Below, piece by piece: positions 43,068 through 45,137 of a DNA stretch of 64,000 nucleotides. How positions within the stretch are numbered: position 1 is the first letter of the stretch; each line of letters begins with the position of its first letter. The DNA lies in contig NZ_FNJR01000004.1 in the NCBI RefSeq assembly GCF_900104475.1, positions 1-64,000 on the forward strand, in the 5' to 3' direction. A program made the translations under genes and the position numbers. Below the pieces are notes generated by a model, which was not told the origin of the DNA, searched no databases, and saw only the letters and a program-made list of their open reading frames with translations. Origin of the DNA: Actinopolyspora xinjiangensis. Its GTDB lineage: Bacteria > Actinomycetota > Actinomycetes > Mycobacteriales > Pseudonocardiaceae.

Positions 43068-43829
43068 ATGTACGGGGCGGAGCGCCGGCAACTGTTGGCG
43101 CAGCGGGTCCGCCGCGACGGTCGTGTCGACGTCGCCGAGGCGTCCGCGGAACTGGAGGTCGCGCCGGAGACCATCCGGCGCGACCTCGGCGCGTTGGAGC
43201 GCCGCGGCCTGGTGCGCCGCGTCTACGGCGGAGCGATCCCGCAGGAACGGCTCGACTTCGAACCCGGTGTCCCACAGCGCGACCAGACCGCCTCGGCGGA
43301 GAAGGACCGGGTGGCACGCGCCGCGCTGGACCTGCTGCCCGGTGAAGGAACCCTGCTGCTGGACACGGGAACCACGACGAGCAGGGTGGCGGGCCTGCTC
43401 CCACCCGAACGCGAACTGACCGTGGTCACCAACTCCCTGCCGGTGGCCAACCAGCTGGCGGGTCGGGGCAACGTCGACCTGCACCTGCTCGGCGGGCGGG
43501 TGCGGGGGACCACGCTGGCCGCCGTCGAATCCTGGGCGCTGGACGTCCTGGACGGGCTGACCGTCGACATCGGACTGCTCGGCGCGAACGGGTTCTCGGC
43601 CGCGCGAGGGTGCACCACCTCGGACAGCGCGGAGAGCGCGGTGAAGTCGGCGATGGTGCGGGCCTGCCGCAAGCGGGTGCTGCTGGCCGACCACACCAAG
43701 TACGGATACGAGCACTTCAGCCGCTTCGCCGCGATGTCCGACCTCGACGTGCTGGTCACCAGCAGCGGGCTGGACGACGCGGCGGTGTCGGAGCTGCGCG
43801 AGCGCGGAACGGAGGTGGTCCTCGCGTGA
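43068..43829 (+). CDS. DeoR-family regulator, FruR-like
   Basis: 253 residues. N-terminal helix-turn-helix (VDVAEASAELEVAPETIRRDLGAL) with YGGAIP wing, and the DeoR sensor domain with the phosphosugar-site pattern LLDTGTTTSRVA, VVTNSLPVANQLA and LGANGFSAARGCTTSD, ending ADHTKYG. Placed directly before a fruK relic with a GTGA overlap, it looks like the fructose-operon regulator FruR, normally answering to fructose-1-phosphate. With the operon broken its present target may be elsewhere. ATG 43068 follows a GGAGG site. Confidence 0.9.
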   Translation: MYGAERRQLLAQRVRRDGRVDVAEASAELEVAPETIRRDLGALERRGLVRRVYGGAIPQERLDFEPGVPQRDQTASAEKDRVARAALDLLPGEGTLLLDTGTTTSRVAGLLPPERELTVVTNSLPVANQLAGRGNVDLHLLGGRVRGTTLAAVESWALDVLDGLTVDIGLLGANGFSAARGCTTSDSAESAVKSAMVRACRKRVLLADHTKYGYEHFSRFAAMSDLDVLVTSSGLDDAAVSELRERGTEVVLA

Positions 43830-44112
43830 TCGTCACCATCACCCCGAACCCCAGTCTGGACCGCAGCGTGCTGCTCGACCGGCTCGACCGGGGCGAGGTG
43901 CACCGCGCCGGCGGGGTGCGCGTGGAGCCGGGCGGCAAGGGGGTCAACGTCGCCCGGGCGCTGACGGCCACCGACCACAGCGCGGTGTGGCCCTGCTGCC
44001 GACCGGAGGGGCGCAGGGCAGCAGCCTCGCCGAGCTGGTCGGCCCCGGAGCTCGTGGCCAGTCCCCGCCACGCGGACCGAACGACGAAGAACTCCGTCCA
44101 GCTCGTCCCTAG
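43826..44112 (+). pseudogene. fruK: Truncated, frameshifted 1-phosphofructokinase relic
   Basis: GTG 43826 overlaps the DeoR stop. The first 54 codons give a clear FruK/PfkB start: IVTITPNPSLDRSVLLDRL and VRVEPGGKGVNVARAL. At 43985-43989 a GT dinucleotide is duplicated; dropping it restores ALLPTGGAQGSSLAELVGP in the next frame, which then ends at TAG 44110-44112 after unrelated sequence. The remaining two thirds of the protein, including the ATP-binding GAGD region, and the fructose PTS gene fruA are absent. The product would be inactive. Confidence 0.75.
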
Positions 44113-44244: not shown

Positions 44245-44258
44245 AGTGAGCGCTCCCA
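44245..44258. promoter_or_regulatory. CebR-like box, imperfect (12 of 14)
   Basis: AGTGAGCGCTCCCA matches the 14-base cellulose-regulator palindrome TGGGAGCGCTCCCA at all but two positions. It lies 212 bases upstream of the AA10 oxidase gene, and a perfect copy lies 156 bases downstream of it. Confidence 0.5.
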
Positions 44259-44377
44259 AGAAAGATGACTATTTCTCCCCTGTTCAGTTCATACATTCTC
44301 CGTGGAGCCGAACGAACTCCGCGCGATCTTGAGCCCTTTTCGGACCAATCAGGAGGAGAAGTCGCGCTGTGAGAGGG

Positions 44378-44406
44378 TTCACAACTTCGAGTGAACTCGT
44401 TACAGT
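44378..44406 (+). promoter_or_regulatory. Promoter of the AA10 oxidase gene
   Basis: TTCACA (44378-44383) and TACAGT (44401-44406) with a 17-base spacer. A GTTCAC/GTGAAC inverted repeat (44377-44382 and 44391-44396) overlaps it. The perfect CebR-type box begins eight bases after the -10, so a bound repressor would block the start site. Confidence 0.5.
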
Positions 44407-44413
44407 TCTGCTT

Positions 44414-44427
44414 TGGGAGCGCTCCCA
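44414..44427. promoter_or_regulatory. Perfect CebR/CelR box TGGGAGCGCTCCCA
   Basis: An exact match to the known 14-base operator of the LacI-family cellobiose repressors CebR (Streptomyces) and CelR (Thermobifida), placed 30 bases before the AA10 gene. It strongly suggests cellobiose-type induction of the oxidase. The repressor itself is not in the window. Confidence 0.8.
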
Positions 44428-44456: not shown

Positions 44457-45137
44457 ATGTCAAAGCGTTCCGTTCGTCGACGTACCGGCGTCCTCACCCG
44501 GATGGTGGCCCTGTCCGCGGCCGCCGCCGCGATGTTCGCCGGAATGCAGATGGGCCAGCCGCAGGAGGCCAGCGCCCACGGGTCCGCGACCAACCCGCCC
44601 ACCCGCAACTACGGTTGCTGGGACCGGTGGGCCGACGACTTCCAGTCGCCCGCGATGGAAGAAGAGGACCCGATGTGTTGGCAGGCGTGGCAGGCCAACC
44701 CGAACGCGATGTGGAACTGGAACGGTCTGTACGTCAACGGGGTCAACGGCAACCACGAGACCGCCATCCCCGACGGCCAGCTTTGCAGCGCCGGAAGGGA
44801 TCGCTACGCCGCGCTCGACGAGCCCGGCCCGTGGAAGACCGTCACGAAGGACAACCAGTTCTCGGTGACCATCACCGATCAGGCCCAGCACGGTGCGGAC
44901 TACTACAAGGTCTACATCACCAAGCAGGGCTTCGACCCCACGACCCAGCGACTCGGCTGGGACAACCTCGAACTGGTCACCGAGACCGGCTCACGGCCGC
45001 CCGCGACGACCACGACCATCGACAACATCGACGCGGGGGACCGCACCGGCCGCCACATCGTCTACACGGTCTGGCAAGCCTCGCACATGGACCAGTCCTA
45101 CTACTTCTGCAGCGACGTGAAGTTCACCGGAAACTGA
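44457..45137 (+). CDS. AA10 lytic polysaccharide monooxygenase, secreted
   Basis: 226 residues. A signal peptide with a long n-region (MSKRSVRRRT) ends EASA, so the mature protein starts at His41 in HGSATNPPTRNYGCW; the N-terminal histidine is half of the copper histidine brace. The second histidine is in WQASHMDQSYYFCSDV. Single catalytic domain, no binding module. The sequence around DPMCWQAWQANPNAMWNWNG and IPDGQLCSAG recalls the Streptomyces LPMO10B type, which cleaves cellulose (and chitin) oxidatively. The exact CebR box upstream supports cellulose as the signal. GAGGAG precedes ATG 44457. Substrate not provable from sequence. Confidence 0.93.
   Translation: MSKRSVRRRTGVLTRMVALSAAAAAMFAGMQMGQPQEASAHGSATNPPTRNYGCWDRWADDFQSPAMEEEDPMCWQAWQANPNAMWNWNGLYVNGVNGNHETAIPDGQLCSAGRDRYAALDEPGPWKTVTKDNQFSVTITDQAQHGADYYKVYITKQGFDPTTQRLGWDNLELVTETGSRPPATTTTIDNIDAGDRTGRHIVYTVWQASHMDQSYYFCSDVKFTGN

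Follow-up and report, generated by a model that had tools for sequence, protein, structure and literature searches.

The window, a 64,000-nucleotide stretch of Actinopolyspora xinjiangensis DNA, carries a gene for an apparent lytic polysaccharide monooxygenase (LPMO) with a candidate cellobiose-repressor operator in front of it, which raises the question of which regulator controls this gene and from where it acts. The gene (44457..45137, + strand) encodes a secreted, single-domain protein of 226 aa; a GAGGAG ribosome-binding site precedes its ATG, which the orthologs share. Pfam assigned LPMO_10 to residues 41-221 with 168.8 bits (cut-off 23) and detected neither a carbohydrate-binding module nor any other further domain in this protein. 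Its nearest solved relatives are 5uiz, 6ndq and 4oy6, and His41, the predicted N-terminus of the mature enzyme behind a putative cleavage site, aligned with residue 1 of the latter two AA10 proteins. His41 and His145 were invariant in eight family homologs, which fits the requirement for a copper histidine brace. By domain and histidine criteria the product is an AA10 enzyme, with putative activity in oxidative cellulose or chitin cleavage.

We examined the region in front of the start codon for promoter elements and operators (operator sites and the deletion junction below are given without strand). The CebR/CelR palindrome TGGGAGCGCTCCCA, reported as exact by the first-pass annotation, indeed matched at 14 of 14 letters (44414..44427, 0 mismatches). 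By consensus reading, the predicted -35 element is TTCACA (44378..44383, +) and the predicted -10 element TACAGT (44401..44406, +) follows after 17 bp; the box begins 8 bp past this -10 and ends 29 bp upstream of the start codon. Since the predicted transcription start falls at ~44412-44415, the CebR box would lie on the start site, the arrangement of a classic steric block. The genome-wide search that had been called for yielded three exact copies in 5.04 Mb, against a chance expectation of ~0.05 per genome under a dinucleotide model (~3e-6 per any 300 bp) and no copy of a reversed control pattern, while sites with 0-1 mismatch numbered eight versus ~2.3 expected. Across seven Actinopolyspora genomes all 14 columns of the box at the AA10 promoter were invariant, compared with 27 of 120 other promoter columns (Fisher p = 1e-8). 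These data supported the presence, by sequence, of a CebR/CelR operator in front of the AA10 gene, and such invariance argues against a relict.

An operator in this position calls for a regulator, which the first-pass annotation had expected to act in trans on a gene remote from any cellulase gene. Both expectations held up. When ten cellulose-use proteins of this genome were searched against the window, just two gave matches, the paralogous AA10 (to the gene described here) and, weakly, CebE (to a sugar-binding ABC protein at 1082-1903, with 25% similarity to CebE), and the annotation's proviso that cellobiose control would fail if the genome lacked a LacI-family CebR was answered by a CebR candidate on another contig (G000:C32:170032-171060, equal to L026:8032-9060). 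With genes called by a simple script based on codon usage, that locus reads bglC-cebGFE and, divergently, GH6-AA10-GH12, then cebR, the bglC being GH1-like and the transporter genes cebEFG-like. The candidate was named by its position, Pfam and its nearest structure; in NCBIfam it gave generic LacI matches alone, with no CebR equivalog model in the output. Its best solved relative was 5ysz at 1.5e-103 (next, 3e-40), which we take to be T. fusca CelR, although the search output names it merely 'LacI family'.

The genome encodes nine proteins with a LacI-type HTH, so that the box might be bound by another of them, or be a relict, leaving the oxidase outside cellobiose control. We consider this very improbable: the recognition helix of the CebR candidate, GVSRGTVSRV, is close to GVGRGTVSRV of 5ysz and unlike that of the other eight, the candidate also sits with cebEFG, and the three relatives that lack it lack the boxes as well. 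In the genus, an AA10 ortholog (85-99% identity), a cebR ortholog and exact boxes occurred together in 7/10 genomes, and the remaining three were without all of them alike. In one of the seven (G007, L069) the order GH6-AA10-GH12-cebR was kept, with an MFS-like gene rather than cebEFG-bglC among the called neighbours on that side. At the family level, AA10 was detected at E <= 1e-40 in 111 of 390 genomes, and an exact box was present in 109 of these 111 versus 90 of the 279 others, a raw count uncorrected for shared ancestry. Among 23 further AA10 loci of the family, 13 had an upstream box with 0-1 mismatch, six stood directly behind an apparent GH6 gene, and three had neither a good box nor a GH6 gene in front.

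The remaining boxes outline what else CebR may control. Boxes with 0-1 mismatch precede cebE and GH6, as well as genes for a GH10 xylanase, a BNR-repeat protein (GH74-like, judged by its repeats and length) and a sodium/solute symporter, and another lies between genes for a GDSL hydrolase and an amidohydrolase. An exact box was also found 147 bp upstream of a gene for a secreted GSDH-family (glucose/sorbosone dehydrogenase-like) protein (L028:9672-11059, on G000:C8), and this box recurs in G001, G003 and G006; it raises the idea that the oxidase's electron donor is co-induced, the GSDH-family protein being a possible donor for AA10 oxidases.

What the sequences show is where the sites lie and how well they are conserved, which regulator genes are present, and how these features co-occur; binding, the start site, induction and any effect of Crp are inferred in the following scheme. 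Without cello-oligosaccharides, a CebR dimer supplied by the ceb locus would occupy 44414-44427 and block initiation. Cellobiose or cellotriose, imported via CebEFG, would free CebR from the box, and the oxidase would then be made alongside the products of other boxed genes, namely GH6, GH10, the GH74-like enzyme and the transporter. A Crp/GlxR-type site over the -35, described below, would by motif prediction most likely add a cAMP-linked input of carbon status. With a probability of roughly 0.88, we regard the AA10 gene as belonging, on its own, to the CebR cellulose regulon, with a CebR-blocked start and a likely cAMP input.

A second box had been proposed further upstream. The near-copy AGTGAGCGCTCCCA (44245..44258, 169 bp upstream) does match the operator at 12 of 14 positions, that is, with two mismatches. 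Sites with <=2 mismatches numbered 51 in the genome versus ~44 expected (25 for the reversed control); for a 450-bp upstream stretch the expectation is ~0.004 such sites. A <=2-mismatch site occupied this position in four of seven genomes, with the sequence of the G000/G003 pair differing from that of the G001/G006 pair, and none was present at the orthologous promoters of G005, G007 and G008. Thus, the exact box is significant by itself and the near-copy, as a class, is hardly enriched; neither a strong operator at this place nor a second working box was supported, on both chance level and conservation. The near-copy is probably a weak or non-functional box. It might still serve as an auxiliary operator that aids repression through cooperation or looping, as the shared position in four genomes and the imperfect second boxes preceding S. 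scabies cellulase genes (PMC5332605) would allow, but the scant genome-wide enrichment, the three promoters devoid of it and the divergence between the two pairs make this role unlikely.

The near-copy had further been suggested to be captured together with the oxidase, on account of its closeness to a decayed fruK, and comparison with relatives gave another account of this region. Upstream of the AA10 gene lie a DeoR-family (fruR-like) regulator gene of the fructose operon (43068..43829, +; a neighbour outside the CebR unit), a frameshifted, deletion-cut 5' remnant of fruK (1-phosphofructokinase, PfkB family; 43826..44037, +) and a 3' remnant of an SGNH/GDSL-hydrolase gene (44025..44112, +), the latter intact in G003 (L134:1638-3008). 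G003 has the genes fruR-fruK-EIIA-fruA-HPr-SGNH hydrolase-AA10 in this order with all reading frames open, and the arrangement, with or without the SGNH gene, is common to relatives. The window aligned with G003 up to ~44037 and again from 44025, the overlap being the 13-mer CCTCGCCGAGCTG (44025..44037), which in G003 occurs twice, once in fruK and once in the SGNH tail, with 5,747 bp between the copies. The distance from fruK to AA10 is 631 bp in the window and 6,378 bp in G003, a difference of exactly 5,747 bp, and this agreement between spacing and distance points to a microhomology-type deletion in the window. As read from one assembly, a 5,747-bp deletion has joined the beginning of fruK with the SGNH-hydrolase tail, removing most of fruK, EIIA, fruA, HPr and most of the SGNH-hydrolase gene. 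Since the cluster is intact in G003, the A. xinjiangensis strain appears to have lost this fructose PTS cluster. What was taken for decay of fruK is a deletion scar, and the shared synteny together with this scar refutes the capture of the box with the oxidase and leaves it no link to fruK. In G003 the near-copy box is likewise present, in the SGNH-AA10 intergenic region, and no CebR box with up to 3 mismatches was found within 700 bp before its intact SGNH gene.

The promoter also holds a site that the first reading had missed. A perfect TGTGA-N6-TCACA palindrome of the Crp/GlxR type, TGTGAGAGGGTTCACA (44368..44383), contains the whole predicted -35 element, and 16 of its 16 columns were invariant in the seven genus genomes (p = 1e-9); in the nearest other genus (G210) the corresponding site reads CGTGAGGGGGTTCACA. 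The genome's Crp ortholog (L139:1106-1780) matched the M. tuberculosis Crp structures 3h3u, 3mzh and 3d0s at ~5e-121, and an ortholog was present in 10/10 genus genomes. Exact copies of the palindrome numbered three in the genome, versus about one by a base-composition estimate. One of them precedes a resuscitation-promoting-factor (rpf) gene; in M. tuberculosis and C. glutamicum, genes of this kind are targeted by Crp or GlxR (PMC4005916; PMC3972247). The third copy (L121:1501-1516, G000:C28:59639-59654) lies just upstream of a gene for a 234-aa protein. A one-mismatch site was located between cebE and GH6.

Two readings of this palindrome were weighed. Dual control of the stand-alone AA10 gene, by a CebR block released by cellobiose and a Crp/cAMP input over the -35, is in our view an evenly balanced proposition. 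Somewhat short of even odds is the reading in which the palindrome is merely an extended -35 or the site of another regulator, with no role for Crp and control by CebR alone: TTCACA suffices as a -35 by itself, about one exact copy would be expected by chance where three were found, and no exact copy was seen at any other CebR-boxed promoter in the stretches read of this genome. Against this, the left half TGTGAGAGGG, which the -35 does not cover, shows the same invariance as the right half, an exact copy also stands before rpf, a classic Crp/GlxR target, and the genome encodes a Crp that closely resembles the M. tuberculosis protein. If Crp does bind here, the direction of its effect may depend on position, as GlxR activates or represses according to where its site lies (PMC3972247); because the whole -35 is inside the site, we lean slightly to repression by bound Crp.

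We compared this arrangement with known systems. In cellulolytic Streptomyces, AA10 genes of clades A1 and A2 are controlled by CebR (PMC4898821), and in Actinosynnema mirum three CBM33 (now AA10) genes carry CelR sites (PMC3377646). CebR control of AA10 genes is thus already established, and the Actinopolyspora gene is a further case. As in the Streptomyces regulon (PMC4898821), the identical 14-bp palindrome precedes the AA10 gene, the protein is single-domain like those of clade A2, cebR lies elsewhere in the genome, and GH6 and other cellulases belong to the regulon; in contrast, Actinopolyspora has far fewer boxes (three exact) and a Crp-type site over the -35, and its case is made at the sequence level, whereas the Streptomyces design is backed by cebR deletion and expression evidence (PMC4898821). 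With the CelR systems of T. fusca and A. mirum (PMC3377646) it shares a LacI-type regulator adjoining a cellobiose ABC transporter and a beta-glucosidase, with a box before the transporter, but the Actinopolyspora regulon is smaller and its cebR is convergent with GH6-AA10-GH12, on the opposite side from cebEFG. S. scabies, where single genes have multiple or imperfect CebR boxes (PMC5332605), resembles it in having a perfect box and weaker copies upstream of cellulase genes, except that the weaker copy in Actinopolyspora lacks conservation and is likely to have little effect. A survey in which cellobiose raised cellulase activity in only one tested actinobacterium (PMC3377646) counts against cellobiose control as an explanation. 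The Crp-type site agrees with mycobacterial and corynebacterial Crp/GlxR operators (PMC4005916, PMC3972247) in its TGTGA-N6-TCACA form, the Crp ortholog and the rpf site, and differs from them in lying over the -35 of an AA10 gene that also has a CebR box. Searches of the open-access literature turned up no report on CebR in Actinopolyspora and none on actinobacterial LPMO genes being regulated by Crp, and the Crp-type site might be the sole feature that sets the Actinopolyspora case apart.

With these results the CebR cellulose regulon and its oxidase arm reach into Actinopolyspora, a salt-loving bacterium, where the boxes form a compact set of some eight sites, few enough to be tested together. 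The Crp-type site over the -35 offers a handle on whether cAMP signalling reaches an actinobacterial LPMO gene; dual control, if true, would tie the AA10 gene to cAMP status and so set it apart from the remaining CebR targets that were read in this genome.

Finally, 84,980 species were scanned for TGTGA-N6-TCACA followed 20-50 bp on by GGGAGCGCTCCC, a scan from which the records of the window's own genome were perhaps left out. The pairing of a Crp-type and a CebR site before an AA10 gene occurred in Actinopolyspora only. A general actinobacterial design of this composite kind was rejected, as the other matches were mostly one Streptomyces divergent promoter. In ~28 Streptomyces-type records (L140-L145, L147-L149, L151-L155, L157-L162, L164-L169, L172, L174, L175), this promoter contains a Crp-type site (in most cases TGTGACTCAAGTCACA) with the CebR-box core after it; the gene downstream is, judged by eye, flavin-reductase-like, and neither of the promoter's genes is a cellulase. 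Matches from Allokutzneria and from two MAGs appear to be incidental.
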